The notes below the pieces were generated by a model. That model was not told the origin of the DNA. It saw nothing but the letters and a program-made list of their open reading frames with translations, and ran no database searches. Shown here piece by piece: positions 3,581 through 63,007 of a stretch of DNA of 64,000 nucleotides (position 1 is its first letter; each line of letters begins with the position of its first letter). The stretch is from Pyropia yezoensis. Its lineage: Eukaryota; Rhodophyta; Bangiophyceae; Bangiales; Bangiaceae. Location of the stretch: assembly GCA_009829735.1 (NCBI GenBank), contig CM020620.1:372001-436000 (forward strand), given 5' to 3'. Position numbers and translations under genes: made by a program.

Positions 3581-3694
3581 CTCTGTCAAGACCCCGCGCT
3601 GGAGTTCCTTGCGCCAGAGGTCCAAGCAATCCTGCTGGAACTGGGCCGCGCCGGCGTTGCCGACCACCGTGGAGTAACGCCGGGCCGCCAGAGG

Positions 3695-12325: not shown

Positions 12326-12329
12326 AATA

Positions 12330-23103: not shown

Positions 23104-23135
<32 letters not shown>

Positions 23136-23414: not shown

Positions 23415-23449
23415 GGCGTTTGTGAACAGGAAGCGTTGAAGCGGTAGCG

Positions 23450-26932: not shown

Positions 26933-27190
26933 TTACCTCACTCTTCCCGCCGTCAAAACTAGCCCCCTTCTTGCTCTCCCCACCGTCAACACTATCCCCC
27001 TACTCGCTCTCCCCACCGTCAAGGCTTGCTCCCATCTCACTCTCCCCACCGTCAAGCCTTGCTCCCATCTCACTCTCCCCGCCGTCAGCATCCGCTCCAA
27101 ACTCGCCCTCCCCTCCTTGAACAGCTGCTCCTGCGCCACTCTCCCCGCTATCAACGCTTGCGTCCATCGCACCCTCACAGCCGTCAACGC
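26933..27190 (-). repeat. 30-bp tandem repeat encoding an Asp/Gly/Glu/Ser decapeptide
   Basis: About eight units of roughly 30 bp encode variants of DGGESEMGAS at the C-terminus of the KDZ-like gene. Two further units continue in frame past a TAG at 27000-27002. Confidence 0.75.
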
Positions 27191-38017: not shown

Positions 38018-38486
38018 TGTGGCAGTATTGACCCCCAGGTAGGGGGGCAACACGTGCCATGCAAGGGGCGGCAGGCCACTAGCCTGATCCGCTCCTCCCC
38101 CTGCATTTGGGTCCATATTCCCTAAGTTTGGGATAGTTAGCTTAGTAGTAAATCCAACTTGGATTTGAGGGTTTTCTGCATTTATCGTCTTGAATTTTCG
38201 TGTGGCCCGGTGGGCAGGTGCTGGGGTGGGAGATTCTGAGTGGCGAGATTCTGAGTGGACCCGGGGGGGATAAGGGGAGGGACAGCGGGGCTTGGCCCTG
38301 CGTCCCCGTCCCGACCAAGAAACTGTTGGACCACACACCATCCTCTTGTTTGTCCGTGGGGGGTTTGCCCCACAACAGGGACAGAGTGTGTGCGACTTGC
38401 ACTTCTTCCGGTTCCCCCGACACGGGAGGCAGCCCTAGCACACCGCCCCAACTTGGGTGCCGTGTGTGCTAGTGGTTTTTGCCACA
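38018..38486 (+). repeat. 5' LTR of element D
   Basis: 469 bp, TGTGGCAG..TTTGCCACA. It should carry the promoter for element RNA; no TATA box is obvious. Confidence 0.92.
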
Positions 38487-38488
38487 TT

Positions 38489-38506
38489 TGGTGGAGCAGC
38501 AGGGGA
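38489..38506 (+). promoter_or_regulatory. Primer-binding site, element D
   Basis: TGGTGGAGCAGCAGGGGA, two bases after the LTR; identical to the family I site. Confidence 0.8.
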
Positions 38507-38605
38507 CAGAGGTAAACTTTACCTCCGGGTGCACCCGGGTGTAGGGGGCCCTCTGTCTCAGAGGAACGGTGGTCTTGGACCGTGTCATACGGATCGTCAG
38601 CCAAC

Positions 38606-40585
38606 ATGGCTAGCTCGGACCCCCCGTCGTCCGGGGAGTACACGGGTGACGCACGTACTTCAGTGCCTTTGAATACTGGTGAGACACAGGTGGGTTTACC
38701 TGGGGTCGCAGAGGGACTAGAGGTCCCTCAAGCCAGCAGGACTGGAAGTATGGGCGGGCAACAGGCCACCCCGACTCAGTCGGGAGTTCACTCGGGTGAC
38801 ACTTCTGATGTGGGTGGGCCGAAGTCTGGCCACCGTGTGGTATACTCAACGGGAACGTCCCAAGGGGTGAGGACTGTCCCTGCGGGTTCCACTCGGGTTG
38901 GAGCCAACTTTGGCTTGGAGTCGTCGCCAACTAGGCTTTCGGAGGACGGTGGACCTCCGTTGGTCGGCGATGGGCTCGCGCCCATGCCCCCGGTAGAGAC
39001 CCCTGAGGAACGTGGCTACCCCTCAGGTGGACTCCCGGAGGCGGACCGAGACTCAACTGGAGTCGTCAATCCACTCCTCGCGGAAACTGTCCGTCGGGAG
39101 GCGACCAATGTGTTGCGGCAGACTTTGCCGGACCTGGTGGTCACGATGACGAATACTATTCTGAATCAGATTGTGGCGAGTTTGCCAGATGGCCTCAATG
39201 TCCAGACCGGATTGGGGCTTTCGAGCCCGCAGGCGCAGGGGGAATCCCCCCTTACGCCTATCTCTGGTCGCCCCGAACTGGGGGCGACACCTGTGACTCC
39301 CAACGAGGGAGCCACACCATACTCGGTGGGGCGTACGCCCTTCACGGGGGAGTTCCCCCCGGAAACGCCGGCGGCTACACCAAGCGCGCCGCGCCGGACT
39401 ACAGGCACTGAGAGTGAACTTACCCCAGTGCCACAGCGGCTGTTCCCTCAACGTGAGGTGCCGCCCAAGATCCAGGTAGCCAACCCGGTCTACCAGAGGA
39501 TCTTTGACTGTGAGACCTACGCCCTCCACAACAAGTCGGTGGCGTATGGTCCTGACCAGGCCCGAGCCATGGGCCGTGCCAAGAAGAATGCACTTCATTC
39601 TTTTGGGCACAAAGCGGAGTGGGACGGAACTCCCCCCCTCCGCGTCTTTGAGTTCCTACGTCGTTTCACAAAAGCCTGTGACGACAATGCCATAAGTGAA
39701 GGCATGGCTTTTTACATGCTACAGGAGTTTACGAAGGGCGACCTACGGACAGAACTTATGTCCGTCATGCCCAGCTCCTCAAGTGGAGGCGCTTGGGAGG
39801 TGACGTCCTATTTGGAGCTCGTCAACTGGTTGTTGAGAGCCATGGTTGATGAGGCAGCGTTGGCTTCTCAAGTCGAGGAGTTTACGCAAGCCCATCAGGA
39901 AGAGGCGGAGGACGAGTTGTCCTTCGCGGAGCGAGTCCGTAAGCTCAACAATCTTTGTGGGTTTCTTCATCCACAAGCTGTGGTGAAGAGTCGGTTTGTG
40001 GAGGGACTCCATTGGTCAGTCCGGATGGAGACCCGGGAGCATAACACTGCCCGGGCGACCCTGGCCGAGTTGGCCAGGTTCGCCTATCGCAGAGGCGAGG
40101 CCTACCGCAAGTTGCGGGAGGAACAACGCCAGGAGCGTCAGGCCGAGTTGGCCAAGGAACGCCAGGAGCGTCAGGCCGAGTTGGCCAAGGAACGTCAGGA
40201 GGCGCGCCAGGCCAGAGAGTTGAGAGAGGCACGCCGAATCCGCAAGGAGAGGGTGGTAGCTGCCGTGGGAACTTCCCAGGGTATCCCTTCGTCTTCCCCA
40301 GTTGGGAAGACCCCTCCCGGAACGGACCATCGGTGTTGGAACTGCAACTCCGATGGTCACTGGGCGTATGATTGCCCCAAGTTGAGTAAACGCATCCAAC
40401 AACTTGTTAGGAATGCGAGTAAAAAGTCGGCTACGAACGAAGTCCGTTCACGCCGCGAGGGTGGGTCTCGACCGGTCGTTGCGGTCGCCACACCCTCGGC
40501 GGAGGAGGCGGACACGTCGTCCTCGGACTCGTCGTCTTCCTCCCCGCCCTCAGATTCGGACGCCAAGTCGGCGGGAAACGAATGA
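38606..40585 (+). CDS. Gag of family II (element D)
   Basis: ATG 38606 (AACATGGCT) gives 659 residues. The N-terminal 270 residues are Pro/Gly/Thr-rich and probably disordered. The capsid-like helical part lies at about 290-480 (including FLRRFTKACDDNAISEGMAF). A highly charged coiled-coil-like stretch with a repeated ERQAELAKERQ unit follows near 500-530. The zinc knuckle is CWNCNSDGHWAYDC (CX2CX4HX4C). The gene ends GCG GGA AAC GAA TGA, overlapping pol. It shares overall order with family I gag but little sequence. It should assemble the particle and bind element RNA. The frame is intact. Confidence 0.9.
   Translation: MASSDPPSSGEYTGDARTSVPLNTGETQVGLPGVAEGLEVPQASRTGSMGGQQATPTQSGVHSGDTSDVGGPKSGHRVVYSTGTSQGVRTVPAGSTRVGANFGLESSPTRLSEDGGPPLVGDGLAPMPPVETPEERGYPSGGLPEADRDSTGVVNPLLAETVRREATNVLRQTLPDLVVTMTNTILNQIVASLPDGLNVQTGLGLSSPQAQGESPLTPISGRPELGATPVTPNEGATPYSVGRTPFTGEFPPETPAATPSAPRRTTGTESELTPVPQRLFPQREVPPKIQVANPVYQRIFDCETYALHNKSVAYGPDQARAMGRAKKNALHSFGHKAEWDGTPPLRVFEFLRRFTKACDDNAISEGMAFYMLQEFTKGDLRTELMSVMPSSSSGGAWEVTSYLELVNWLLRAMVDEAALASQVEEFTQAHQEEAEDELSFAERVRKLNNLCGFLHPQAVVKSRFVEGLHWSVRMETREHNTARATLAELARFAYRRGEAYRKLREEQRQERQAELAKERQERQAELAKERQEARQARELREARRIRKERVVAAVGTSQGIPSSSPVGKTPPGTDHRCWNCNSDGHWAYDCPKLSKRIQQLVRNASKKSATNEVRSRREGGSRPVVAVATPSAEEADTSSSDSSSSSPPSDSDAKSAGNE
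40573..40579 (+). promoter_or_regulatory. Candidate -1 ribosomal frameshift site, family II
   Basis: GGGAAAC phased G GGA AAC in the gag frame, then GAA TGA. Slipping back one base enters CGA ATG ACC, the pol frame. An alternative is reinitiation at the ATGA overlap (40582). Confidence 0.65.
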
Positions 40586-43500
40586 CCGTTGGGGCTGGTC
40601 GTCCGAAGCTCACAACGGCAGCCTCGGCCAAGTGGGCCAGGAGGAAGAACCAACCGTGCCGGATACTGCGGCGACCTAAGGGAGTCCGCCCATCTCGGGT
40701 AGGACTCCCCAAGAACGTAAACCCACGTCGGGTCATCGCGGTGCTGACGGGTGAGAACTTCCAGGTGGCTGGACGGGTGCAACTTGCCCCCGGCCGTGCA
40801 TGCTGTACCCGTATCGTACTTGATGCCGGGTCAGGAGCCTCCTTGATACGCAAGTCGCTATTACCAAAGGAGGTGAAGCTCCAACGCTGGAGGTCCAAAG
40901 CTGACCATATGATTGACATCAATGGTGGGGTACTTCCCATCGTTGGTGCCGTGACCCTACCAACTAGGTTGGGGACCCATGAGGTCGACGTGACCTATGG
41001 CGTAGTTGAGAATGTATCGGTACCCCTGCTTCTGGGTACCCCTTATGTTGTTACACAAGTGCCTTTGATTTGTGGCCCTGAGTACTGGGTCAAGTTGATG
41101 AATGGGGAGACTATCCCCATCCTTGGTAAGGGAAAGTCTGTGGCTCCTGTGACAGTCTCACAGTCGAAGCCTGTTTGTTCGGTGAGGGAAGGGTTTACTG
41201 CTACCCTGCGTTTAGCCCGCAAAGTCACGTTGCCCCCCAACTCGGTGGCGCACGTTGATGTTGTAACTGATTTTACGGGGAACGGGTTGGTGCACCCTCA
41301 CCCCCGTCTTGCTCGCAAGCACCAAGTGCATGTTGCCCTTGGCACGATGGACTCCAAAGCCGGAGTCCCGTGGAGGATCCAGGTGATGAACCTGAGCCCG
41401 ACGCCCAAGTACTTCAAGTCGGGAGCCAAGTTCGGCTATATCGACCAACACGAGGGACCGGTAGTAGCGGTCACCCTCAACGCGGGCGCAAGTAGCGACC
41501 CGAAGTCCGGAAAGGAGGAGCATCAAGCCAAGTCGGCCGCCTCTCCTCGACCCCATGTGAACATGGAGGGTGTCCCCCCCAGGTTGAGGGTTCAAGTTGA
41601 ACGCCTCTTGGACCAATATCACAAGTTGTGGGATGGTCAATTGGGACTCACGAGAGCCACCCAACACCGGGTCGAGTTGAAGCCCGGTGCACCCCCTATA
41701 CGCCAAAAACCGTGTAGGGGAGGACCTCGTTCAAGGGCCCTCGTTAAGGAGCAAGTTGCTCGCATGGAGGCCCTCGATGTGATCGAGGCCAGCAACGCCG
41801 AGTGGGCGAGTCCGGTGGTTATCGTCCCCAAGGTTGATGGGACCCCCCGGTTCTGTATCGACTACCGTAAGCTCAACGAGAGCACGGTGAAGGACAGTTA
41901 TCCCCTACCTAGGATGGATGACTGTCTGGACTCTCTGGGGGAGGCAAACGTGTTCTCTACCCTGGATTGTAACGCGGGGTACTGGCAAATTCCCATTGCC
42001 CCGGAGGACAGGCATAAAACTACCTTTACCTGTCACTGTGGTACCTACCAGTGCAAGCGTCTACCGTTTGGTCTGTGTAACGCGCCGGCAACTTTCCAGC
42101 GCGCTATGGACATGATTCTGGCCGGAGTACGGTGGCAGATCTGTCTTGTGTACCTGGACGATATCATTGTGTTCTCCCGAAGTCCGGAGGAGCACATTGG
42201 CCATCTTGGCCAGGTGTTCAAGCTACTTGCTGACGCCGGTGTGTCACTGAAGGCGAGTAAGTGCCACCTCTTTACTCAAGAGGTGGAGTACTTGGGACAT
42301 GTTGTCCATCCGGGGCGTCTCAGTGTTAACGAGAAGAACTTGAGGGCCATTCGTAAGGCTCAGTACCCCCGGACCCAGACCCAGATGAGGAGCTTCCTCG
42401 GGATGTGTAACGTGTACCGACGTTTCACCAAGGGCTTCGCCAAGGTGGCGAAGCCGTTGAATGAGCTAGTGAGCTCAACGCTACCGAAGAACCTGCCTCC
42501 CCCCAGTCGGGTGGAGCAGGAATCCTTTGAGACTCTTCGGGACCTTCTGCTGAAGCCCCCCATCTTGGCTATTCCCAGGTTGGGAGGCTACTACATCCTG
42601 GATGTGGACGCTAGCTACGACCAACTTCTTTGTGTGTTGCTTCAGCAGCAGCCGGACAAGGAGTACTTGCCGGTGGGATACTTTAGTAAGGGGCTGAACT
42701 CGGCCGAGAAGAACTACGGAGTCACCGAGTTGGAAGAACTCGCAGTGGTGTGGGCGGTGACGTCACTTCGTCACTACCTGGAGGGTGAGAAGTTCCTCAT
42801 CCGCTGTGACCACCGCGCGTTGCAGTTCATCTTTAAGACGGACTGTACGAGCACTCGTCTCAACCGGTGGAGGGTGCGACTGGCAACCTTCAACTTTGAC
42901 ATTGAATACCGACCTGGCAGGCAACATGCCCTTGCCGACGGCCTCTCTCGGGTACCTACCGTGGGGCTGGACACTAACCCAGTCGATGAGGACATCCCCA
43001 TCGTGGGGGTAGTCGCGCGCTCGGGTCAGGCGTTGAACCCCGAGGCGCCAGGGAACAAGAAGTACTTGCCCCTGTCCCTGGACGAGGTGGTGAAGGCCCA
43101 GGCCGAGGATCCCTTCTGCAAGTCGTAGAGGGATATACTGGATACAGTGGTAGAGACGCGTTTCTTTCTGGGAGACGATGGCCTCCTCATGAGGAGGGGG
43201 GTATTCCAGGGGACCGAACAACTTGTCGTCCCCGCATCCCTCAAGGACAGTATCCTTGAGAGGGAGCATAACGCTCCCACAGGTGGACACCTGGGGTCTA
43301 GTAAACTGTACCAGACCCTGAGGACCAGGTACTACTGGCCGTCCATGGTGGTGGACATCTACAGTTGGGTGGCTGCCTGCACAAGTTGTGCACAGAATCG
43401 TCTGATGGAACGGCGGCCTACTACGGCTATGCTATTGTTCCCGGCCAAGGAGCCCTTCGCCGCGTTGGCGATGGACATCCTTGGGCCACTGCCCGTGACC

Positions 43501-44565
43501 GAGGAGGGCAACCAGTACCTCCTGGTCATCTGTGACCGCTTCACGAAACTTACGCGAGCGATCCCACTGGCAGAGATCACGGCCATGTCGGTCGTGTCAG
43601 CCTTCCTAGATCACTGGGTTGCCGCGTATGGCATCCCGGATAGTACACTATCGGACAATGGACCGCAATTTGCGTCTGTACTGTTTCAGGGAGTGCTGGA
43701 TATGTTGGGGGTTAAGGCAGACTATGCCACCCCCTACCACCCACAAACTAATGGGCAGGTGGAGCGCTTCAACAAAACTATTGTTAGGCAGCTGCGCCAC
43801 TATGTGAGTGAGCACGTGAAGACGTGGGACCAATACATTTCTATCCTTACTACTGCCTACAATTCGCAGGTTCACTCATCTACCGGGGAAGTACCCCTCG
43901 CTTTTGTGACCCCCCATCGCGTGCGGTCTATTGCCGTGCGGCGGCCGCTCCCAACTAGGGAGGATGGTGGCAGTACGCCTACTCCTACTGAGAGTAAGGC
44001 GGAGTTCGCTGCTAGGCTTGAAAACCTCATCCCTAAAGTCAGGGCTGAGATGGACAAAGCACAAAAGCGCTACAAGCGTACCTTTGACAAAAAGGTGCGC
44101 AATGCTAAACATGTCCCCGAGCAGGATGACTGGGTGCTGGTACACTCGCACACCCCAACTGGGGGTAAGCTGGTATTCCAGACGAAGGGACCGTACCAGG
44201 TCCTTCGTACTGATGGGCGGCGCTTCACCATCGAAAGTGACGATGGGGTCCGCACAGTGAACGGACAGGACGTGGTCAAAGTTGCACCACCGCCTGCAGG
44301 CGACCCAGCTTGGGCGCGTGCTTTGGAAGCGTGGCGCCTCCCCTCACTGCCTGCGGCCAAACAGGGCCCGCAGGAGTACGTGTTCGATAAGTTCATCGAC
44401 CACGGATGGGATGAAGACACTGACCGCCTCATGTTGAGGGTGCGTTGGTTTGGCTACAAAGCCAAGGATGATACGTGGGAGTATGTGGAGGACCTTCCCG
44501 CTGAGAAGGTCCGGGCGTACTGTGCCCGGAATGAGATAGACCCTAACAGCCCTCCCTCAACGTGA
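40582..44565 (+). CDS. Pol polyprotein of family II (PR-RT-RNase H-IN-chromo) with one TAG
   Basis: Protease lies near 40822 and reads DAGSG where the family normally has DTG or DSG. Reverse transcriptase has FCIDYRKLNEST and YLDD (42151-42162). RNase H has VDASYDQ and CDHRALQF. Integrase has an HNAPTGGH zinc region, MDILGPL, LSDNGPQF and QVERFN (Glu codon 43762-43764), so DDE is complete. The chromodomain is VRWFGYKAKDDTWEY near 44440-44490. A TAG at 43126-43128 between RNase H and integrase interrupts the frame; element C has CAG there. Translation would need readthrough, or this copy depends on others. Confidence 0.92.
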
Positions 44566-44676
44566 GGGAAGGCCGAGCAACAGTGCCAAGAGAGTGCTTC
44601 AAGTCGAAGTGGTACGCAGAGTGGCTTTTAACTACAGCCCTAACCCTCACACTCTCACAACAAAGGCAGCTACCAA

Positions 44677-46620
44677 CTAGGCACGCATGCTAGACTCTCC
44701 CACTCCACGGCCCTCGCCCTCACGTGGAGGCGAGCGGCGAGACCCACGCCGATAACGGTCTCCACCAGTTGGAGGGGGCGGCGGCTCCAAGTCGGAACCG
44801 TTGCGTCCCTCACGGTCGCGCAAGTGGCGCCGACCGTGGCCACTCTTCTGCCTGGTCTTGCGCGCAAGTTTGCGACGCAGACGCTGGACAGACTCCGTCT
44901 CCGACGGGGTAGAGGACTCCGAAACGGAGTAAGACAACTCGTCTTCCGATACGGAAGGAGAGCGCCGCGAGTGTCGGCGACGACGGCGAGGAGGCGAGTA
45001 TGCCCGGCTCGCGCGACGTTTGCCACGCCCAAGTGGGGCTGGCTGGGGCATAATAGCCCCAATGCGAGCCAACTCGGCTGTCACAAACTCCGCCACCGAC
45101 TCGCAACTCGCGGTCGCCACTGCAGTACGAACGCGCTCCTCAAGTTGAGGAGTCTCGGAACTCTGTAGGGTTGCGGTCGACGCGGCCAACCAGGAAATGG
45201 TGCGCACCAACGTGGTGATCATAATCTCTGAGGTTAGAGGCGTGGGCGGCAACACCAACTTGGGGTATACCGTCAGGAGGGTGGCCCCCAAGTTGGGGGA
45301 CACCGGGGTGGAAGACTCCACGGCCACGCTGATCGGGATGTTCCCGTGAGGTTGGAAAGGAACAGGAGGAAGCGGAGGGGCCCGCCGAGGTGGCGGTACC
45401 CGGGTGTAACTGCGACCCCGACTTGGGGCCCCCGCAGTGCATTGAGTCATATGGTCATCATAGGACGGCACGGCCATAACTATGGGCTTGTCCGGGGGTG
45501 GCGCAGTGTGGCGATTCACCCCCGGGGCATACGGGTAGTCCCCGATGCCCAACCCCTTTCGTAGGACCACACGGCCGTCGTGAAGTTCACGAGCGACCCA
45601 CACGAACTGGCGAAGTGCGCCATCGTCCTTGGGCCCACGAGTGGGGCGGCGCAACTTGTGCTCAATGCTCTCCCACTCGATAAACTTATGGAGCCGGAGC
45701 ACCTCCTCAAGTAGAGTGAGTTGTCCTGATGAGCACCCCTCAGCAACTAGCTGAGGGGTGAGCTGTTCCAAACCTTGGATAAGCCGAAGGGGGAAATGCC
45801 AGAGCATCCCCCGCCGCTGAACACAGGACACCCAGGTCGACATGACCTCGAGGAGCCACTGGGTGGCCAACATGGCCCACACCAGGTGATCAGGGGCAGC
45901 CGTCAACATGATGGAGCCGAAGTGGTCAAGCAACCGTGGCAACAACGCCGGTAACCCGTAGGGGACCTCAACTTGAGGCCACCACTCGGGCTTCTTCGGA
46001 TAGTACTGCTCCTTACTGGCAGCAGACTGTTGAGGAAACTCAAGTTGAGCCGAGGTCACGAAGTAGGGACCTCGCCGGAAGTCTTTCTCCATCCGCACAT
46101 CAAAGTGATGAGTGTGCGGATCGGCCTCGTGGAGGTGCGGTGGGCGAGTTGCCACAGCGTCCCACGTGAAGGTCGGCAAGTCGCCGGGACCCGGGATAGT
46201 TCCCCCGCGGTCCACCATGGCCTTGGCACGCTGAACGTCCTCAACCTCCTCATCGTCTAGGAAGGCAAACTGGTCCGTCCTGAAGCCGGCAGGGAACCCG
46301 ACCCTACGGGGATACTTCTCCCGTAGGCGGTCCCATACCCGGCCCATCGCTGCGCCAAGTCGGCCACAGCGAAGAACAGTCAGCCCCTCCTCATAGAGAG
46401 GCCAAGCGGGGTAAAACCACCGCCCCAAGGCCTCACGCGGGACAACTTGTCCCGCCTCCGGGGGAGACCCCGCCGTCAACCCAAAGCCGGGTGACGCGGG
46501 AGTCCCATCCCCCGGAGCGATCGCGGAGCCCCCGCCGGAAGTCCCAGCGGGTGCTGCCCCGTAGGAGGTATCCTCCATGCGCTCGTCAAGAGAGTCCGTC
46601 TCCACTCCCGGAGTCGCCAT
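44677..46620 (-). CDS. Antisense third ORF of family II (element D, intact)
   Basis: From ATG 46620 it encodes 647 residues; the frame is open without ATG to 46707. It is convergent to pol with a 111-bp gap. The N-terminal region has FRRGPYFVTSAQLEF and a YYPKKPEWWPQVEVPYGL motif (YYP at 45997-46005) that aligns with family I (YYPK..VEIPVGF). A helical segment follows (LLEVMSTWVSCVQRRGMLWH and LTLLEEVLRLHKFIEW). The last 130 residues are Arg/Ser-rich (SPPRRRRRHSRRSPS, RRLRRKLARKTRQ), suggesting RNA binding or nuclear location. No signal peptide or membrane segment, so it is not env-like. Known plant Tat-lineage elements also carry antisense ORFs; relation to those is untested. Function unknown. 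Confidence 0.78.
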   Translation of the reverse strand: MATPGVETDSLDERMEDTSYGAAPAGTSGGGSAIAPGDGTPASPGFGLTAGSPPEAGQVVPREALGRWFYPAWPLYEEGLTVLRCGRLGAAMGRVWDRLREKYPRRVGFPAGFRTDQFAFLDDEEVEDVQRAKAMVDRGGTIPGPGDLPTFTWDAVATRPPHLHEADPHTHHFDVRMEKDFRRGPYFVTSAQLEFPQQSAASKEQYYPKKPEWWPQVEVPYGLPALLPRLLDHFGSIMLTAAPDHLVWAMLATQWLLEVMSTWVSCVQRRGMLWHFPLRLIQGLEQLTPQLVAEGCSSGQLTLLEEVLRLHKFIEWESIEHKLRRPTRGPKDDGALRQFVWVARELHDGRVVLRKGLGIGDYPYAPGVNRHTAPPPDKPIVMAVPSYDDHMTQCTAGAPSRGRSYTRVPPPRRAPPLPPVPFQPHGNIPISVAVESSTPVSPNLGATLLTVYPKLVLPPTPLTSEIMITTLVRTISWLAASTATLQSSETPQLEERVRTAVATASCESVAEFVTAELARIGAIMPQPAPLGRGKRRASRAYSPPRRRRRHSRRSPSVSEDELSYSVSESSTPSETESVQRLRRKLARKTRQKSGHGRRHLRDREGRNGSDLEPPPPPTGGDRYRRGSRRSPPREGEGRGVGESSMRA

Positions 46621-46945
46621 GGCTCTCCCCAAGTTGGGGAGAGACGCTCTGGCTATCGCAGCACGAGACCCGCCTCGAGTTGAGGGGGACTCGGATCGTG
46701 GGTACACGGGTGGCCTCCCCAGCGTGGGGCGGCCCAGTGGAAGGTGAAGGGGAGGTGGTGGTGGTGGTGAAGTGTGAACTGAGGAGAGGAAGCTGCCGAG
46801 TGGGCAAGCTTGAGGAGAGGGGCGGTCAACGTGACCGCCTCCACATCCGTGTTACGTACTCGATGTGGGACAGCAAGTCGCGCCCCCAACGCCGAGACGT
46901 GCGTTTACGCACCCCCTCACAGGGCCGACCGGGTCGGTCGGAACT

Positions 46946-46958
46946 GAGGAGAGGGGAG
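46946..46958 (+). promoter_or_regulatory. Polypurine tract, element D
   Basis: GAGGAGAGGGGAG directly before the 3' LTR. Confidence 0.8.
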
Positions 46959-47427
46959 TGTGGCAGTATTGACCCCCAGGTAGGGGGGCAACACGTGCCA
47001 TGCAAGGGGCGGCAGGCCACTAGCCTGATCCGCTCCTCCCCCTGCATTTGGGTCCATATTCCCTAAGTTTGGGATAGTTAGCTTAGTAGTAAATCCAACT
47101 TGGATTTGAGGGTTTTCTGCATTTATCGTCTTGAATTTTCGTGTGGCCCGGTGGGCAGGTGCTGGGGTGGGAGATTCTGAGTGGCGAGATTCTGAGTGGA
47201 CCCGGGGGGGATAAGGGGAGGGACAGCGGGGCTTGGCCCTGCGTCCCCGTCCCGACCAAGAAACTGTTGGACCACACACCATCCTCTTGTTTGTCCGTGG
47301 GGGGTTTGCCCCACAACAGGGACAGAGTGTGTGCGACTTGCACTTCTTCCGGTTCCCCCGACACGGGAGGCAGCCCTAGCACACCGCCCCAACTTGGGTG
47401 CCGTGTGTGCTAGTGGTTTTTGTCACA
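46959..47427 (+). repeat. 3' LTR of element D
   Basis: 469 bp, nearly identical to 38018-38486, ending TTTGTCACA. Confidence 0.92.
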
Positions 47428-47432
47428 GTCCG
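47428..47432. other. Target-site duplication GTCCG, right copy (element D)
   Basis: Matches 38013-38017. Confidence 0.85.
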
Positions 47433-47850
47433 GGTCGGCTTGGCGGGCGCGGCCGCCGTGCTTGCCGCGGCCAGGAGACGCGCCGTGGGAGCAGCCGCCG
47501 CGGTACCCGCCGCACAGACCGGCGCTGTGGGCGGGGACGCCGCCGTCCCGATCGGTGCGGCGGGCGCGGCCGCTGAAGTTGCCGCCGCCGTCTGGACCGG
47601 GGTGGCGGGCGCGGCCGCCGCGGTATCCGCCTCGCACACCAGCGCGGTCAGCGGGGACGACGCCGTCCGGGTCGGTGTGGCGGGCGCGGCCGCCGTGGCC
47701 GGTAGTGCCCCGGCCCCCGGGCCCGCGCGTAAAGCATCGTTGTCCGTTGTGTCCGTGGGGGGGGGGCGCGTGTGGGCGGCTTGCCGTTCGGGCAGTATCG
47801 GCGTAGTTGTCGCAGGGGGCAGATTGGTGCGCGTGGGGTGGGGGAGGGGG
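47433..47850 (-). CDS. Repeat-rich multi-exon gene, 5' part (right of element D)
   Basis: In the frame that continues the left block, this reads Ala/Thr/Pro repeats (LTALVCEADTAAAAPATPVQ, then ASTAAAPAKPT) and joins exactly to RTAASPHTTPVC at 38017 once element D and one GTCCG are removed. Upstream the frame stays open through TDTTDNDALRAGPG towards poly-Pro codons near 47.85 kb. The true start is not identified; an upstream exon across the G31 tract at 48.2 kb is possible. Confidence 0.5.
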
Positions 47851-53640: not shown

Positions 53641-55213
53641 AGGCAGTTTTGTTTTTTACATCGACCCGGCATTAGCGTGCTAAAGTCGCCACCATCCTCA
53701 GCCATTCCATCATCCTCCCCCCCCTCCTCCATGCGCAGTACAGCGCTTTGCCCCCATCCACCCTGCCCTCCCCCCCGCTGGTCCTTCCTTCCGCCTGCTG
53801 TCCAAGTATTAAAGCAGCATCGGCAAACTGCGCTGTCGCCACTATCCCCGCTTCCAACCACCCAACTCCGCCCCAAACAACCCCCACCACGCGCGAGACA
53901 CATCGCCTAGCTTCCCCCCCTCCCTTCCCCGCTCCGACCTTCCCACAGCAGCCGTTACTTCCGATGCACCCCCAACTCTGCCCTTGTAGGTCTGCCTCTT
54001 CTCACCAACCTCAACACACGCTCAAACCATCCGACGCCCGTCCCGCCACGTACCGTCTTCCACGCACACCCCGCTCCCGCTGCCGTTGCCACAAACAAAC
54101 ACAGCGCCGCCGCCACCGCCAGCCCACCCAGCGCCGACCTCCACCGTCCCCCGCCGCGCCCCTTCCCCCCCAGCTCTACCCCGGCGCGACAGCGGCGGCG
54201 GCGGCAGCGGCGCCGGTGGTGCCAGCGTGCTCTCCTGCAAGCAAAAAAGAGTCAGTGCGCAGGGCACATAAGCATCAGTCAAAAAAGAAGGGGAGCGGGA
54301 AGATCAGCAAGGGCAATGGAGACAGTAGGAGATTGGGTGTGTTGGGGAGATGAAAAGGGGCGATGAGTGGTGGAGAGGTCTCGAGCTGGCGGCTAGCCCG
54401 CGGTCAAAACGGTGGTCGAGCAGGTGGCCGAGCCGGTGGCCGAGCCGGTGGCCGAGCCGGTGGCCGAGCCACCGCCGCGGACGCCGCCGCCGCCGTCGCC
54501 GCGCGCGACAAAGGCGGACGTAGCCCTCATCGCGCGGCCGCAAACGGCGGTGGCGGTGCAGGTGCCGGTGCCGGCTGCCACCACTGCCGCTGCTACCCCC
54601 TCCCCCGCGGGCGGGCGTGGCCCCAGCTGGGAGGCCTGCAGGCCGACCACGACCGGCGGGGACGGCACCGGCATCGGCGGCGGCCGAGGCGGCGGCACTG
54701 GCGGTGGATGGATTGTGCTGACTTGGCGCTTGGTGAATGCCAGCGGGCGAGCTCTTGGGGTAGGGATTGCGCTGTCCACGTGGACGTGCTCGATAAAAGC
54801 GCGCCCTTTTTCACCCAACCATCGTTGAGACCGCCCGCAGAAGCGACACAGATCCGGCCTCGTCCAATCATCAGGCGGATTCGGTGCCAGAGAGTGACCT
54901 GGCAAATCCAGCCGCGCGCGCCATGGTCGCCGTGTAGCCCTCTGTCTCGGAGCCCTCCCCCGTGTTCCTTCCCGTCCCCATGTACCCCCGTACACCCGTC
55001 CCCCCCTCCCCCATGTTGCCCCCCTCCCCCCTGTAGCACAATAGGGTATCCGCCGCATGTCCACTCTCAGGGAACACTCACCAAGGGGGATCGGCACCAA
55101 CGTCACCGGGAGGCCAAGGTTGCTGTCCTTGGAGCGCAAGCCACGGGACCAAGATGGGAGCCCAAATGGGAGGGGTTTGTTGTTCTGCCTTGGCCGGCGG
55201 TGGATTTGCCGCC
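53640..55213. other. Low-complexity C-rich DNA, possible short gene
   Basis: Pro/Ser-rich and Gly-rich frames overlap on both strands. A + frame near 54412-54828 starts with four VAEP units. No homology or splice model is convincing. Confidence 0.3.
54408..54472. repeat. 12-bp tandem repeat
   Basis: GTGGCCGAGCCG repeated about four and a half times in perfect phase, preceded by a variant unit. Confidence 0.85.
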
Positions 55214-55395
55214 TGCCCCCACGTTATAAACCCTCGGAGACACTACTAACTACCCTCCACCCCAAGATGCAAGTCCCTCTGGTCATACGTAACTTATAGA
55301 TACCGTGACCAGTCCGGACTATCAAATTGAGAGCCAAGGATTAGAAGTAGCCCCCCTAATATTAGGGTTACAATACGGACAACCATATTGCTACA
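55214..55395 (-). repeat. Probable 3' LTR of element E (boundary tentative)
   Basis: In element sense it begins TGTAGCAATATGG after AAGGGGGGGATA, closely matching the start of the family I LTR (TGTAGCATCC). The far end is placed at a CA near 55214 after GTTTATAACGTGGGGG, by likeness to the family I end (GTTTTATACCACA). The second LTR is not visible, so length (about 180 bp) is uncertain. Confidence 0.4.
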
Positions 55396-55408
55396 TATCC
55401 CCCCCTTA
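55396..55408 (-). promoter_or_regulatory. Polypurine tract, element E
   Basis: TAAGGGGGGGATA on the - strand, directly before TGTAGC. Confidence 0.6.
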
Positions 55409-56048
55409 GATTCGGCCCGTCCTCGGGTCGAGTTGCATTCGGGATACCGAATGTAAGTGGGTCGCGTGACCGTTTACCAGTCGGGTGGGGCTTTGCGCCC
55501 CGTCGCGACAGACACCCCTTTTCGAAGTTGTCTGAGGGGGGTGCCCCCCTTTATGTGGTACACCCACGATCCGTTTTCCGGACCGTTAAATTCCCGATGC
55601 GGGTTTTTGTTCACGACCCCCCTTTCCGAGGGGTAGTGCAAGCGGATCCGCCACCGGATGCCTGGTGGTAGGGGAGCCTCTCTCGTGTTACCGAGTGAAT
55701 GGGGGCGGCCGCTCCCGCTTTTCGCGGGGGCGGTTTCGGGGTGAACCCCTCTTGGTTGCCCCGTACGGGGGTGTGGCCCCGTACCGCCCAGGTGCCTGGG
55801 TGGAGCCCGTTCGTAGCCTCGTGGAGCGCGGGTCGACCCGCGCGCCTGCGGCGCTTCTCGTGGCCGTTTGTGGTCATAAGCGCGGGTGCCCGCGCTTCCC
55901 TGGCTCGTCCGCGCGAGCGTTCCTCGTACCGGGTCGAGCCGGCGTCGGCTTTTCTGCACGGGGCGCCCCTGCTACCCCGGTCATCATATCGGACCCCCAG
56001 GTACCCGGGGGCGAGGACGACCTCCTGCTTGAGGAGGAGGAAAAGGTG

Positions 56049-58355
56049 ATGGTGGACGACGTTCCCGTCTCTGCCACCGCCGCCGAGTGCTTCTTTGCGA
56101 GCTCGTCGGAAGACGAGGACGACCGGGTGACCGTTCGTGTGGCCCCGGACGGCGCGCCGGGCGGGTTGTCGTCCGTGTGTAGCGGCACGACGGCTCCGTC
56201 GGGTGGTGGACAACCGCGTGCAGCGGTGGCTTCTACCGTTACTCCTCCGGCGGCCCGGATGGCTTCTGTCGCCGGTGCCGGCGTGGCTCTACCTCAAGAT
56301 GGTGTCGCCGGCGTGGCGGATGGTGGTGGCGGCACCCCGGCCGGTACGGCGGGTCAAGACGGCGCAGGTGCCCGCCCGGTTGGTGTGTCCGCTGCTGCGG
56401 GTAGCGGGTCTACCCGTGCTGCCCCAGTGGTACCCACGTCGGGTCCGGGTGGCGGCGTCGCTCTGCCCGCGGTGCCGCGGACGCGTGATGGTCAAGAGGT
56501 ATCTACCCCGATGGCAGTGGACTCCGGGAGTTACTCCGGGCGGGCGCCCGCCCTTCTTCTTCCTCCTCGGCCTCGGGCACCGCCGGCAACGGCCCATGTG
56601 CCGGTGGGGCATCCCCCGGCTCCCCCGATTCTTCCTGGTCCTGCCCGGGTTGCTCCGTTGGGTGGCGGCGTCGCTGTGGCGGCGGGTCAACCCGCCATGT
56701 CGATGTCCGACTTGGTGGCTCGGGTTCGAGGCATGACTGTGCAAGAGTCAATGGAGTCCGATGGGCGGATGCGGGTGGACTTCCACCAGCCGCGTTACCG
56801 TGGAGAGTCCTCCCGGCGCGTCAAGGTGGACCCGAGTTGGGAGCGGGAGTTGGTGCGGCTGGTCAACCAGCCGAACGCGGTGCGGGTGGAACACCATCGG
56901 ATCCTGAGTCAGCCGGACGAACGGCATGTGCAGCTCTGGCGCACCCGGGTGGGACGGGGTGAGGTCTACCTCGACCCCGCTTTCGGGGTATGCGACCTGA
57001 TTGCCCCCGCGTTGCCGCGGGAGGTTGACTACCCGGCTAGTGCTCGGGGGATTGCGGCGGCGGCGGAGCCGGTTGCGTTTGGGGAGACGGTGGGCGATAC
57101 CGGTCGGTATCCCGACATTGACTACTACCCGGGGGTATCCCCGTATCTGTCGTTGACGGCTCCCTACCCGCCTATGGCGGAGTTGAAGTCGGCGTCGAGC
57201 TGGCGACGTAACCATGGTGTCATGGCGGATGCGTTCCGCACCGATATAACGTGTGCGTTGCAGACCGGCAACGGTCGTGCACCGGTATACACTCCCGTGC
57301 GCCCGCCTCTATGGCAGGAGGGGTGGGAACCCGCCCCTGCTTTCCGGTTTGACACTGGTCCCGGTGTCCGATACTTCGGGAGTGTGTTGGCCTCCCAGCC
57401 GGTCCACCCGTTGCAGGGTACCTTCACCCTTGAGGTTACCCTCGGGCAGGCTTCGTCCTTCTTGCTGTCCGTTCGCCGGCAGGGGCGCCTGTTTCATCTT
57501 CTGACGGGTGTCCGTCGGCACATCGCGCAGTTGGGCGTGGACCTGATAGCCGCCAAGACCGGGTTGGCCCGGGAGTTCGAGGCTCTGCTGGCTGTTCACG
57601 ATGCCGTGAACTGGGCTGGGGTGCTAGCCCTTCCCCCGTACCGGGACCCGCAGGCTGGGGCTTCCCCCTTGCCTCGTCACTCGTTGCGTATCCGGCGTAC
57701 TCAGCCGGGTGAGCCCAATTGCCATGGGTGGGCGTCCACCGAGGCCGTTCCTGACCTGGGTATTCCCGTGGTTATCCATGACCCTCTTCAGGTCCTTGCC
57801 CCGTGGTTCGGTAACCCGATACCGGCGGCGGTTGGCCGTCGTCCCCGAGAGTTGGGCTCTGCGGGTGGGGAGCGTGAGGTGTCTCGTCGTCGGGCGGAGC
57901 CCCGCCGGGGTTACGGTGGAGCCCCTTCGGTGGGGTCCTACCGGGCCTCATATCAGGCGCCACCGGCTCCGGTGGTGGCCGTGTCGGCCCCTGCGGCTCC
58001 TCTGGCTGCGCCAGTGTCACCTCCCGTCCCTGTCATGCATGACGGGGGTCCCCGTCTCTAGTATGAGGGCGTTGACGTCCTTGTTGCCCGCGCAATGCGG
58101 GAGGGTCTCTCTGTTAGCTGGGGGGATATCCCCCCAGGTGCTGCGCTGGTTGGGTCAGCGCGTTGCTTCGGTGGTGTGCTTGACCGCCTCCAGAAAGCTC
58201 TGGAGGACGTGGAGGCTGGCCGCAGCACCCTCGTCCAGCTATGCACCGAGGTAACTCGGGTGATTGACCGTCGTGAGATTGCCGACCGGTGGAGCACGGA
58301 GGTATACGCGATTACGCGTGAGTGGCCTCCCTCGGGCAGTGGGTCTACCCACTGA
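56049..58355 (+). CDS. Antisense third ORF of family III (element E), one TAG
   Basis: The first ATG is 56049; the frame is open without ATG from 55665. It reads 670 residues to TAG at 58059-58061 and continues in the same frame for 98 codons to TGA at 58355. The continuation holds the conserved C-terminal segment (ALVGSARCFGGVLDRL, ADRWSTEV), which matches family I (SLVLGTYASVLNNVVDRV, AQQWSETF), so the gene originally ran through. Other shared parts are VGRGEVYLDPAFG, a YYPGVSP motif (57123-57131) and FTLEVTLGQASSFLLSVRRQ followed by an H-rich helix, like family II (LLEVMSTWVSCVQRRGMLWH). An acidic start (SSSEDEDD) and a Pro/Ala-rich stretch precede them. Function unknown. Confidence 0.72.
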
Positions 58356-58832
58356 AGGGCGCTATTGTTAGTGCGGGAGAGGGCCCCGGTGACCCTTACG
58401 GTGGCCGGGTAGTAGTGAGTATAAACTCATCCCCTTTGGGGCATTGCTTGCCTCTGTTTGCTGCCCTGGGGAGTACTCCTTCTGGCTCAGTGGTGCCTTG
58501 CCTCCCGTCCAACTTCTTCCGGTTGGTTCATGCTTGGGGGGGTCATCCTCCCTCACTATGTGTCTTGGCTTGGGGAGGTCATCCTCCCTTGTAAGCCCCC
58601 TAGTTACTTCGATATTATCGGAGTTAGCCTTTACCTTTAAGTTAACTTATTAAGGTTCAGGTTTCACTTAGTTACCTAAGCTTGGCTGGACTTAGTTGCC
58701 TAAGCTTCGTTTGACTTAGAAACCTAAGTCTGATTTGACTTAGAAACCTAAGTCTGCCGTAACCATGTCACACCCTACTTAGTAGGTATAAGCCTCACCC
58801 CCCAACAGCCGAAGTCGGTGTCGGCTAGGCTG
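58356..58832. other. Gap between convergent antisense ORF and pol, element E
   Basis: Much longer than in families I and II (111-145 bp). It has no gene and contains two GGGAGG-TCAT-CCTCCC hairpin units (58540-58592) and the repeat below. Confidence 0.6.
58664..58757. repeat. Four tandem 24-bp palindromic units
   Basis: Units of the form ACTTAGnnnCCTAAG recur about every 24 bp; each can fold into a small hairpin (CTTAG/CTAAG). The position between two convergent genes suggests 3'-end formation for one or both transcripts. Confidence 0.65.
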
Positions 58833-61800
58833 TTACGGTAGGCGTCGTCGCCTCATGTAAGGCATGAGGAGTTGGCGGGGTATATTTGCCGCCTGTTCCC
58901 AGGTGGGTGAGTCGTATCCGACCCACATAACCTTGACGTACCAGGGTCCTGGTAGGTCCGGGTCGGTGTGTCCGACCACGCTCTCTACTTGGTATGGAAT
59001 CCCATCCGGTCCCACCGGGTCATCTGACCGGTGGGTTGTAAGAGCTTCATGTAGCAACCCAGCCGGTACCGGCTGAGGCTGTTCCGGCTTCGGAGCAGGT
59101 GTGACATCATTTACACTGATACGTTGGATCTCCGTATCGGAGTGTAAGATAACAGAGTGGTCATCTCTGTGGAGAATCTGGTACGGTCCCTTGACCGGTT
59201 GCATGAGCTTGTTCCCTCGGAACGTCTGGTGTCTGATGTAGACCCAGTCACCTGTTACCAGGGTTGCGTTGCGCACCCGTAGTCGGGCGTCGAAGTTCTT
59301 CTTGTATCGAAGTTGTGTTCTGTCAAGGGCACCCTTGAGCTTAGGAATCATCCACGATAGCTTGGCCAACCAAGCTAGGTGGATGCGTTCGGCCGGTCGG
59401 CCTTTCGGTGTATCATACCGAGTGCACCTGCCTGGCGGCAGCGTCAGGTTACCGACGCCTAGTGGCATGACCCATTCCAGTGGGGCGATGTTGGTACTCC
59501 GATGTGGCCTGGCATTGTATGCCAGGGTGAGTACGGACAGAAGCCTGTCCCAAGTGTTCGTGTGCTCGGCCACGTAGCACTGTAGCATCTTGACGATGGT
59601 GCGGTTGAACCGCTCCACCTGCCCGTTGGTTTGCGGGTGGTAGTCGGATGCCCGACGTGGTTCGATACCGAACATGCCCAGGACCTTAGTGCAGAATGCT
59701 GACGTAAGGTTTGCTCCGTTGTCGGAGAGGAGTTGCTTCATGACTCCGTATGCACTGATCCAGTGGTCAACCACTGCGTTCATGATGGTGTATGCCGTAT
59801 CATTCGGGATGGCTGCCGCTCGTGACAGCTTAGTGAAGCGGTCAGACATGACCAGGATGTACCTGTTCCCTTCTTCCGCTACCGGAAGTGGCCCGAGTAT
59901 GTCGATAGCGACTTGCTCGTTGGGCCCATCAGGTGGGAACAGCTTCATGGCAGACGCCTGCCTATGTAGACTCATGCGGTTACGTGCACAGGGGTGGCAT
60001 CCCCTTACGTGGTCGACCACGTCGACGGCCATTGCTGGCCAGTAGAAGAACCTTCGCATTGCTGCGAACATACGTGAACCCCCCGGGTGTCCGGCTGTGG
60101 GGTTCTAGTGTTCTCGTTCCATGACGGCTTGCCGTAAGGACACGGGAACCACGACTTGATGTCGTCCATCGGCGGGTGCCCGCCGGTATATGAGTCCGTC
60201 TTCATTCTCGGAGAAGATGCCGGCTGTACCGGCCAGGAGGTTAGCGCGATGACGTCTACAGTCGTCGTCATTGGCTTGTGCCTCGCGGAAGTCCGCGAGG
60301 GTTAGTGGGCATGCTCGGTGTGCCATGGTATGGTCAACCATACCTTGGGTAGCGTTACCCACCATGCAGACCGGTACCACCGGGATGTCCTCGTCCACCG
60401 GGCAGGTATCCCCGCTCGGGGTGTCGAGTCGAGACAATGCGTCTCCGAGATGGTGGGTTGACCCAGCCTTATACACGGTACGGTAGTCGTGCTCGGCCAT
60501 CTTTAGCCTCCATCGGGCTAGCCTCCCATGGCTGTCGGAATCCTTGTCACCAAGGTTGAGGAGCCATCGTAGGGGTTCGTGGTCGGACCTCACGATGACC
60601 CTGGAGCCCTCCAGGTATGGACGGAGCAGTTGCACTGCCCATATAACTCCGAGGTACTCACGCTCGGTGGCACTATAGTTACGTTCAGCCGGGTTGAGTG
60701 TCCGGCTGAAGTACCCTACCGGACGTAGGTCCGGGGTAACGTTATCGGAACCGATCAACGTCTCTCCCTGTAGCAGGGTGCATCCCACTTTGGTGTCGCA
60801 CGCATCGACATCGATGACGAAGGTACCCCGTCTGTGCGGTAGCGCAAGGACGGGTGGGGATAGTAGGGCTCGCTTCAGCGACTCGAATGCCTCCTCTTCG
60901 CTAGGCGAAGGGGGTTGGAGTACCTTGGGCAAGGTACTGCTCGTAAGAACCGTCAACGGTTTAGCTATCCGAGCGAAGTCCTTGACGAACCGTCGGTATA
61001 CATTGCACATTCCCAGGAAGCTCTTGAGCTGTGTCTGGGTGTTAGGGAACCGGGCATCCCGGAGTGCCCGGGTATTGGCTTCGAGTACCCCTAGTTTACC
61101 AGGGGTTATCTGGTGGCCCAGATACTCGACCGTCTGTTGGAAGAAGGCGCACTTCTTCAGACGCAGGGTTACCCCGGCGTTCCGCAAGAGGGTGAGTACC
61201 TCGTCAACATGTTGCACATGGTCATCCATGTTACGCGAGAAGACGATGACGTCATCGAGGTACACTAGGCAGTTACGCCACTTCACCCCCGACAGTATAA
61301 TGTCGATAGCCCGCTGGAATGTAGCGGGGGCGTTGGACAATCCGAAGGGCATCCTTAGGAACTCGTACACTCCACTGTGACAGACGAATGCCGTCTTGGG
61401 GATATCCTCGTCCGCCACCGGGATCTGCCAGTATCCGGCATTGCAGTCGATGGTGGTAAACACCGTAGCTTCCCCCAGGGAGTCGATGCATTCATCCATC
61501 CTTGGTAAAGGGTAGGAGTCCTTCTTGGTAACCAAGTTGAGGCGTCGATAATCGATGCAGAACCGAGGAGTTTGATCCTTCTTCGGTACGATGACGACTG
61601 GGGCACCCCACTCCGACATCGAAGGTCGTATCACCTTCGCTTCGCTCATCCTCTTCGCTTCTCCATCAACGATCTCTCGTTGCATAGGTCCCGCTCGGTG
61701 CGGTTGTGACCGGGCGGGTCGTGCGCCTGGTACCAGGTCTATACGATGTTGGGTTGCCCCAATGGTACCCAAGGCTCCGCCTGTCCACATGACGTCATGC

Positions 61801-62798
61801 TTTCTTAACATCCGTCGTACCCCTTCGGCTACGGAAGGGGGAAGGTGGTCGAGGTCAGCCTCGGCCAGTGCCTTCAATGCTTCTTGGTCCTTCGGCGGAA
61901 TATCCGCCGGTAATGATGGTCGACTAGGCTTCCCGTCATCGGGTTGCTGTCGCTCGGTGGTCTCGGCGACCGCCAGCACCTCAAGTGGTTCCACTTGACT
62001 TTCCTTGTCAGGGGTAAGGATATCTCCTTCGTAGAGCTCGGCAATCCCGAAGATAGTTCCCTTCGGGAGGGTGACTGCCTTACGGCGATAGTTCGCCATC
62101 ACTAGGAGGGACGACCCTCCTGCTGGGAGGTATATGAGACCGTTGGCCATGGTCAACCCATGGCGCTTGTACGTCCGCAGGTTGGACCGGACTCTGCAGA
62201 TGCCTGCGAGGTCGCAGTTAACCGGGAGGACTGTCTCCGACAACGGTTCAAAGCGAGTTCGCTTGGCCAACCGAAGTGTCTTCGGCTCGACGCTTGCGTA
62301 CACCTCAGCCAAGTTAACGTGGCTCCCTTGTAGCGTCAGGTCCCTGACGATAGCCGTGTGTCCTCGCTTCGTCCCGTCGGCTTCTTGAAGCTCGACGGTC
62401 CTCCGGCCTGGCCGGATTGCATCAACGTGAACGTTGATGGAGGTGCACCCCAGTATGCAGGGCACAGATAGGGTCTCACACGTCAGGAAGTCGACTTCCG
62501 TGGTGAGTTCCCCGATGGTAACCCGCAGCGACATCGCTGCGGTCGTACGAACGAGGCGACCGTTCGCGTCCTTGATGGTGGGTCCCCGAGTCACTCTGAC
62601 TCGCGGAAGCCACTTGTCCGGAAGGGTATCCTTCCGGATAAGGTTGGGTCCAGCCCCTGTATCCAGTACAGGGTAGTACGATCGTGTCGACTGGGGGTCA
62701 ACCCCCAGTGTGGCTGATACCTTGAAGTTCTCCAAGGTGAACAGCACGTGGCCTACACCGATATCCGGTGTAGCTCGGGCATCCTGAACAGGGCCCTA
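58833..62798 (-). CDS. Pol polyprotein of family III (PR-RT-RNase H-IN-chromo) with TAG codons
   Basis: One frame runs from the gag overlap to TAA at 58833, cut by TAG at 62796-62798 and TAG at 60105-60107. Protease has LDTGAG (62656-62664). Reverse transcriptase has FCIDYRRLN and YLDD (61251-61262). RNase H has VDACDTKVG and SDHEPLRWL. Integrase has the zinc region directly after the second TAG (EREH, stop, NPTAGHPG), MSLHRQA, AIDILGPL, LSDNGANL and QVERFN, so DDE is complete. The C-terminus has a shorter chromodomain-like VMWVGYDSPTWEQ. Segments are 880 and 412 residues. It is diverged throughout from families I and II. Confidence 0.88.
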
Positions 62799-63007
62799 GT
62801 CTGGTTCCATGTGACGGGGCTTCCCGTCCTCTCCTCCCAACCTTGGAGGTTGGTCATCAATCCCCTGACGCCGTGTCGTCGGGGCCGGAAGGTGTACCCG
62901 GGGGTTGATGCGGCGTCGGGTCAACCGCGCTCTCCGTGGGGCTTTCTTCGCGGTACTCCGGGATGGCTTGCTTGGGTTACCCCAGCGCCCCCCGGTCATC
63001 CTTCCTC

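Follow-up and report, generated by a model that had tools for sequence, protein, structure and literature searches.

The 64,000-nucleotide stretch of the bangiophyte red alga Pyropia yezoensis analysed here (contig CM020620.1, positions 372,001 to 436,000; hereafter, the window) holds copies of three families of Ty3-type long terminal repeat (LTR) retrotransposons, and in all three families a long frame lies on the strand opposite gag and pol—tail-to-tail with pol and adjoining the 3' LTR. One copy, element D of family II (38018-47427), is complete, with gag, pol, integrase, a polypurine tract, two LTRs of 469 bp that differ from each other once, and a 5-bp target site duplication (TSD), GTCCG. 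Element B (3695-12903) is a minus-oriented member of family I, element E a minus-oriented member of family III that runs from about 55032 to past the window end, and A and C are fragments of the families of B and D, respectively. A preliminary description of the window had regarded these families as divergent; their pol frames are 41-45% identical. Reverse transcriptase (RT), RNase H, and integrase follow gag in this order (Pfam) and, together with the LTRs, polypurine tract, and TSD, place the elements in Ty3/gypsy; for A, B, and D, the integrase C-terminus gave Chromo matches that stay under the curated cut-off (E 1.2e-4 to 3e-4), and E had none. The genome searched for further copies comprised 107,475,971 bases on 11 contigs, three of them of 43.6, 34.3, and 29.4 Mb; stretches fetched from it carry L numbers below.

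An antisense frame had been reported for all five elements. Long frames are indeed present in A, B, D, and E, and that of C is broken by two in-frame stops and a 1-nt indel, its longest piece having 282 aa. Between integrase and the 3' LTR, the antisense strand is free of stops over 632, 620, 724, and 823 codons in A, B, D, and E, whereas the longest stretch in 300 dinucleotide shuffles per region reached 429, 353, 469, and 412 codons, and no sense-strand frame in these four regions is longer than 225 codons. The antisense frames are therefore not shadows of a sense gene, and the original statement that no sense gene overlaps them stands. Some of the frames are less complete than first described. 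In D the frame is open from 46707 to 44677, with its first ATG at 46620 in the context GCCATGG; A is truncated internally by the LTR of B, B has lost part of the N-terminus found in L040 (its 668-aa frame begins in LTR and leader sequence), and E ends at 58061, ahead of a C-terminal part with which its relatives P0003 and P0004 run on, to about 58352. Among copies of these same families, the frame is retained—counting best-scored candidates only, 61 of 66 family II and 45 of 67 family III antisense matches in the genome are without a stop—and a DNA probe found at least 40 copies of family I. For 23 family II copies, the antisense frame was open in 19 of 23, gag in 12 of 21, pol in 12 of 21, and integrase in 17 of 23, a comparison that favours the antisense frame because the copies were picked by antisense matches and rearranged copies align poorly in gag-pol.

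Substitutions between copies follow the antisense frame. Its third positions take 49 of the 77 differences between A and B and 130 of the 209 between D and C, and the ratio of nonsynonymous to synonymous divergence (dN/dS, by NG86) is 0.139 and 0.203, respectively, similar to the 0.126-0.194 that these pairs show in integrase and RT. Of the five other frames of A/B, four have ratios of 0.94-2.7, and the fifth, the sense frame with the same third positions, has 0.196 yet is interrupted by stops; two other frames were tested for D/C, with ratios of 1.4 and 2.2. Across family II (171 pairs, 19 copies), the antisense frame has a mean of 0.087, compared with 0.256 in pol (55 pairs) and 0.202 in integrase (136 pairs), no usable set being obtained for gag; family I gives 0.194 (five copies, 10 pairs). 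In family III, E compared with L009-L013 yields 0.31-0.34 for the whole frame, 0.23-0.27 for the core, and, in four of the five comparisons, 0.08-0.11 for integrase. Given these values across families I, II, and III, the antisense frame is selected at the protein level, its core (in D, residues about 170-350 of the 676-aa frame) more strongly than the linkers. This upholds the earlier view of a distinct retroelement protein read from the antisense strand and shows it to be under purifying selection, dN/dS lying at 0.087-0.34 in most comparisons and, though higher in two family III pairs (0.53 and 0.55), not near 1. Synonymous divergence of the antisense frame exceeds that of the integrase of the same copies in families II (0.29 vs 0.15) and III (0.69-0.73 vs 0.22-0.25), and not in family I (0.128 vs 0.143); recombination between lineages, or faster turnover, could be the source of the excess.

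A shadow of a sense gene was accordingly rejected on two grounds, the frame-specific substitution pattern and the shortness of the sense frames. A broader objection is that the region holds no protein gene at all, being either a chance frame in a GC-rich genome, where long frames are many, or constrained as RNA or DNA. We hold this to be very improbable, given a substitution pattern specific to the antisense frame in both A/B and D/C, stop-free stretches longer than any of the 300 shuffles in all four regions, and annotated proteins in another species, Pyropia vietnamensis, that are 52-57% identical to the family III product.

The gene is also kept by elements that have lost gag and pol. Together with D, 20 fetched stretches (L017-L036) were compared, and four of them hold internally deleted elements between two young LTRs. 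That in L019 measures 4,428 bp, with one difference in 469 LTR sites and the duplication CCAAC; those in L020, L021, and L030 measure 5,016 bp within the fetched stretch, with no differences in 466 LTR sites and duplications GATTG at L020 and CTAAG/CTATG at L021. Their longest sense frames have at most 277 codons (L019) and at most 377 codons (the other three), and all four retain the C-terminal part of integrase, the entire antisense frame, and both LTRs; several other stretches of the set are interrupted or incomplete. The gag-pol junction of L021, probed with a sequence that spans this junction and stops short of the second junction into integrase, was found at at least 40 scored places (at least 789 of 791 bases matched, 98-100%), and eight of 40 coincide with a scored antisense match at the expected distance, none of the eight containing a stop. 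The antisense gene is thus kept in mobile elements that make no gag or pol. Compared with autonomous copies, the gene in L020, L021, and L030 has a dN of 0.0053 and a dS of 0.114 (ratio 0.046, 24 pairs), and of the codons that vary among the three, 11 do so synonymously and one nonsynonymously (binomial p 3e-6 relative to the site ratio). The gene is probably still under selection in these deleted elements, although the signal may partly have arisen before the deletion. In family III, antisense matches at 9880067, 9883556, 9887045, and 9890534 of contig C2 mark a tandem array of 3,489-bp units, each an LTR plus an 843-codon antisense frame, in which nothing matched gag, pol, or integrase at E 1e-4. 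This array corresponds to L014-L016 (G000:C2:9880067-9892399), and neighbouring units in L015 are equal at 1376 of 1377 bases.

Whether the three families share one product was examined by scoring profiles against sequences and against locally shuffled decoys. The family II profile scored 13.6 bits on A (0 of 2,821 decoys as high) and 8.4 bits on P0004 (2 of 2,734), the family III profile 11.3 bits on D (0 of 2,968), and the family I profile 4.3 bits on D (4 of 2,967). Between families I and III no similarity was seen, 1,354 of 3,000 and 2,297 of 3,000 decoys scoring as high, so that these two are connected solely through family II. There is moderate evidence, from sequence comparison, that the products of families I and II, and of II and III, are remote homologues, and the proposal of a product common to all three survives in this chained form. 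The ordered motifs first listed for the three families fared similarly: families I and II share RRG and YYP/VE(I/V)P, and families II and III share LEV..RRG.L.H, but VGRGEVYLDP and YYP of E are not aligned counterparts, the segments of E that align with the RRG and YYP motifs being SSWRRNHG and PVYTPVRPPLWQEGWEP.

A protein database search that requires shared exact words found at least one relative for family I, at least one for family II, and at least five for family III; three of all these proteins are from P. vietnamensis. Eight antisense products had no Pfam match at E<=10 except one DUF, below its cut-off; four had none in NCBIfam at E<=1; solved structures, searched with profiles, yielded no convincing relative; and among viral contigs, 24 stretches fitted a pattern and none encoded a relative. 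The products have about 580-800 aa with proline-rich stretches, and those of D and E have an acidic N-terminus. A duplicated Gag was rejected, only short weak Gag matches being found (best E 0.063; the Gag of E is partial), and Pfam scans detected no zinc knuckle; an Env-like protein was rejected on account of the antisense orientation and the lack of a strong hydrophobic segment in five proteins. More generally, a structural or particle-associated role—accessory capsid, cell-to-cell, or env-like—would suit the size, the proline-rich linkers, and helical parts predicted with low confidence. We think it quite unlikely, since similarity to the elements' Gag is short and weak, no membrane segment occurs in five products (best 19-residue mean 1.55), the orientation means that no mRNA is shared with gag, and the gene is kept by elements without gag-pol.

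The antisense-gene arrangement is already known from plants and a fungus, and the algal families are a variant without a recognised domain. Maize Grande gene23, rice RIRE2, bean PvRetro13, and fungal Boty carry antisense genes (Vicient and Casacuberta 2020, PMC7264820) in the same position and orientation as the algal gene, the likeness being one of arrangement. In the accessible part of that article, gene23 is transcribed from its own upstream promoter, its protein is nuclear according to the title of a cited work, and dyad arrays of the kind described below are not mentioned for these four elements. The Retand lineage likewise has an antisense open reading frame between pol and the 3' LTR of Ty3/gypsy elements; as given in the accessible text, it encodes TRP28, occurs in nearly all recently active clusters, and has been proposed to be a regulator (Vicient 2025, PMC11963269). 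TRP28 (PF04195) was rejected for the algal gene, with no match at E<=10 in eight products or in the whole genome. Retand is moreover a non-chromovirus lineage, whereas the algal integrase has a weak chromodomain-like match, and the same text places recently active Retand in eudicots and Liliopsida only, whereas the present families are in a red alga. In titles and opening lines of abstracts from the open-licence literature of PubMed Central, we found no description of an antisense gene in a red-algal LTR element or of such dyad arrays, though one may exist in print; two articles that mention red algae, PMC2864245 and PMC12477816, describe neither in their accessible parts.

Families II and III have a second unusual feature, dispersed short dyads. 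A k-mer screen found CAACTTG 20 times in D (3.3 expected) and GGTCAACC 10 times in E (0.96 expected), and both prove to mark the middle of perfect inverted repeats whose arms vary. Of the 22 CAASTTG sites in D (both LTR copies counted), 11 extend by at least three pairs, and of the 12 GGTYRACC sites in E, 7 extend by at least four; the core sites of A and B extend into dyads in 0 of 5 and 0 of 3 cases. Dyads were then counted as inverted repeats with arms of at least 7 and a loop of at most 6 against 300 third-order Markov sequences, a post hoc search in that thresholds and cores were set after the sequences had been seen. D has 26 (Markov mean 4.4, maximum 13), of which 22 are odd-centred, C has 16 (mean 2.6, maximum 9), 14 of them odd, and E has 58 (mean 4.2, maximum 15), 45 of them even. 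Odd centres also predominate in the remaining family II stretches, and even centres in the eight family III loci; parity is mixed in L021 (18 odd, 13 even) and L030 (18 and 15), and L030 has a family III pol beside its family II element. In 60 shuffles that kept amino acids and codon usage, the excess persisted in the genes of D (19 vs 4.4, maximum 10) and E (47 vs 5.3, maximum 13), with the pol-integrase frame of C a weak case (4 vs 1.2, maximum 4) and B at expectation (3 vs 3.3). The leader of D has four short dyads, from 46623, 46821, 46899, and 46925; counted with arms of at least 6, the leaders of D and E hold four and seven, as many as in 1 of 200 and 0 of 200 shuffles.

Dyad arms are also less variable than their surroundings. 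Across 12 family II copies, 8 of 274 arm sites vary and 423 of 5,684 elsewhere (18 of 5,000 random placements gave a value this low), and for D compared with C the counts are 4 of 232 and 379 of 5,355 (23 of 5,000 as low), values that are somewhat biased because the dyads were defined in D. In family III, arm variability is 0.105-0.121 against 0.183-0.194 in three relatives. Against five relatives of E, 800 pair cells were unchanged and single changes broke 152, and of the double changes, 7 preserved pairing and 23 destroyed it, so that the sites turn over and do not covary. Three control stretches of host DNA held 19 dyads (40 Markov sequences: mean 9.65, maximum 17), 10 (5.6, maximum 13), and 2 (3.1, maximum 6). 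The first of these, 18493-27500, lies above its null, is enriched in gapped palindromes too, and holds a GC-rich tandem repeat, so that the contrast with host DNA rests on the other two; with no excess in two of three controls, dyads as a general property of host DNA were rejected. The combination of odd parity with 5-bp duplications had raised the idea that dyads are integration targets of family II. This was rejected as well, none of six perfect duplications (GTCCG, GCCAC, CTGCG, CCAAC, GATTG, and GAATG, the last from a solo LTR in L020) having an A-(C/G)-T centre. Two more copies had both ends read: L021 has a duplication with one mismatch and L018 has none. In a single case, L003 abuts a ACAACTTGT dyad resembling another family II copy.

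The dyads could instead act in RNA. The main rival to a regulatory protein is an RNA export or packaging factor, like Rev or the CERV protein of Cer1, that would bind genomic RNA in the nucleus, the dyads forming hairpins. CERV demonstrates the principle in an LTR retrotransposon, being an accessory nuclear protein that acts on the element's own RNA; in the accessible part of its description (PMC10309623), it is made from a spliced Cer1 mRNA and not called antisense, whereas the algal gene is antisense. Elements deleted for gag-pol that keep the gene would still need their RNA exported and packaged, and the dyads lie in coding and noncoding parts alike. Yet on the sense strand G.U does not outnumber A.C in near-dyads (7 vs 11 in D, 7 vs 17 in E; pooled two-sided p 0.04, uncorrected, in the opposite direction), the five family III relatives show no covariation, and many centres in D, and a minority in E, are self-complementary to the middle, where a loop cannot pair. 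Sense-RNA hairpins were rejected for lack of a G.U excess and of covariation, and we consider the export or packaging factor improbable.

Feature coordinates are collected in Table 1. In D, pol and integrase are in separate frames (43128-43147), and in C they form one continuous frame. The heptamer GGGAAAC, a classical -1 frameshift site, stands shortly before the gag stop in all three families (in B at 10363-10369 and in E at 63014-63020, both on the minus strand); B and D have an open pol frame from this site on, and in E a stop intervenes before the pol frame. Families I and II have TTTGGTGGAGCAGCAGGGG in common after the 5' LTR (about 12308-12329, minus strand, and 38487-38505, plus strand), probably the same tRNA primer site. 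A and B lie head to head with a single LTR between them (3690-4270), and B has no target duplication in the window; L038, on another contig, resembles this pair in arrangement, with different junctions. D is embedded in a GC-rich minisatellite-like repeat with spacings of about 40-120 bp (37444-38020 and 47420-47700).

Table 1. Retrotransposon features in the window, with positions counted from its first nucleotide
Feature	Position	Strand	Remarks
Element D 5' LTR, family II	38018..38486	+	TSD GTCCG at 38013-38017
D gag	38606..40585	+	Zinc knuckle close to C-terminus; GGGAAAC heptamer 40573-40579
D pol (RT, RNase H)	40582..43128	+	
D integrase, own frame apart from pol	43147..44565	+	Weak chromodomain-like C-terminus
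D antisense gene	44677..46620	-	647 aa from ATG 46620
D leader, antisense ATG to 3' LTR	46621..46958	-	Ends in polypurine tract 46945-46958
Element D 3' LTR	46959..47427	+	TSD GTCCG at 47428-47432
Family II dyad array over D	38018..46957		26 perfect inverted repeats, 22 odd-centred; core CAA(C/G)TTG
A antisense frame, family I	1796..3694	-	Cut at 3694/3695 by B's LTR
B antisense frame, family I, from ATG 4379	4379..6130	+	
C antisense gene, family II fragment, broken	15740..17682	-	Limits approximate
E 3' LTR	55032..55395	-	Outer limit approximate
E leader, seven short dyads	55396..56048	+	
E antisense gene, family III	56049..58061	+	TAG at 58059-58061
Family III dyad array over E's in-window part	55402..64000		58 inverted repeats, 45 even-centred; core G-D-Y-R-H-C, e.g. 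GGTYRACC

VANDALs are Mutator-type DNA transposons. Their VANC proteins are anti-silencing factors, and in the accessible part of the account by Hosaka et al. (2017, PMC5735166) short family-specific motifs are repeated in the element, protein and motifs diverging together. The algal elements likewise encode a protein of their own and, in families II and III and not in I, hold family-specific repeated motifs, to which binding by the algal product is putative; the algal case differs in that VANC motifs are often tandem repeats in noncoding regions, whereas the algal dyads span the whole element, including coding parts. We propose that the antisense frame is an accessory gene of Ty3-type elements whose product may serve as an element-specific nuclear regulator of the element's own DNA or RNA, with the dyads of families II and III as candidate sites, a reading of the sequences to which we give nearly an even chance. 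The gene would be transcribed from an antisense promoter in the leader, and its product would enter the nucleus and act on its own element's nucleic acid, by anti-silencing or by transcriptional activation; copies carrying the gene would thereby be expressed and mobilised, and elements without gag-pol, mobilised in trans, would benefit while relatives supply gag and pol. In families II and III, the product might work through the dispersed dyads, and because their centre and parity are family-specific, the family's own protein is a candidate reader. Such a role would fit the proposals made for plant antisense genes (PMC7264820, PMC11963269) and, by analogy, resembles the logic of VANC (PMC5735166), as far as the accessible texts of these sources describe them.

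Several results weigh against this proposal or parts of it. Two family III pairs have a high antisense dN/dS, E/L014 (0.53 overall, 0.26 in the core) and L011/L013 (0.55 overall, 0.60 in the core). In the deleted elements L020, L021, and L030, the integrase remnant is constrained too, both against autonomous copies (ratio 0.095) and among the three (7 nonsynonymous, 9 synonymous; p 0.005), and 6 of the 11 synonymous differences in their antisense gene are common to L030 and D and look like recombination; because a useless remnant looks constrained and sites look recombined, much of the selection signal may predate the deletion. Probabilities from hhalign are only 43% (I-II), 37% (II-III), and 0.2% (I-III), on shallow alignments. 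No fold was recognised, the AlphaFold models of D and P0004 being unusable (pLDDT 31.7 and 33.6); Foldseek matches were uninformative (best E 4.1). An arginine/serine-rich basic tail, which would suit nuclear entry, is present in the family II product only. Lastly, family I has the gene with no dyad excess (3 dyads in B against 4.2 expected, 2 in A against 2.0), so that dyads are not required by the antisense gene in general; family I was rejected as a third dyad family, its stretches L037-L042 having 1-5 per 3.8 kb (counted without a null).

The gene may also be real and the arrays unrelated to it, the dyads being, for instance, host-factor sites or left behind by templated repair or by reverse transcription, which we regard as a serious possibility, somewhat short of an even chance. 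Family I, with the gene and without dyads, agrees with it, as do turnover between family III subfamilies without covariation and the control stretch above its null. Against it, the family-specific centre and parity, the lower variability of the arms, and dyad counts not above expectation in family I and two of the three control stretches point to something element-specific that maintains the dyads. At the other extreme, antisense protein and dyad arrays might form one self-recognition system that tells the element from the host and keeps it active. Tens of short palindromes would then mark the whole element, family-specific in centre and parity and free in arm sequence, and the antisense protein would read them as base-paired or dyad-symmetric DNA; we consider this unlikely.

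To the known antisense third genes of LTR elements, the red-algal case adds one whose product lacks any recognised domain and is under strong purifying selection, together with natural deletions of gag-pol in which the gene is kept and candidate sites specific to a family. With family I as a natural control without sites, binding assays that exchange the sites would test the function directly. If the dyads prove to be the target, this would be a novel means by which an element labels its own DNA from end to end, and if self-recognition were true, the gag-pol-deleted elements that keep LTRs, sites, and gene would be self-marking parasites.

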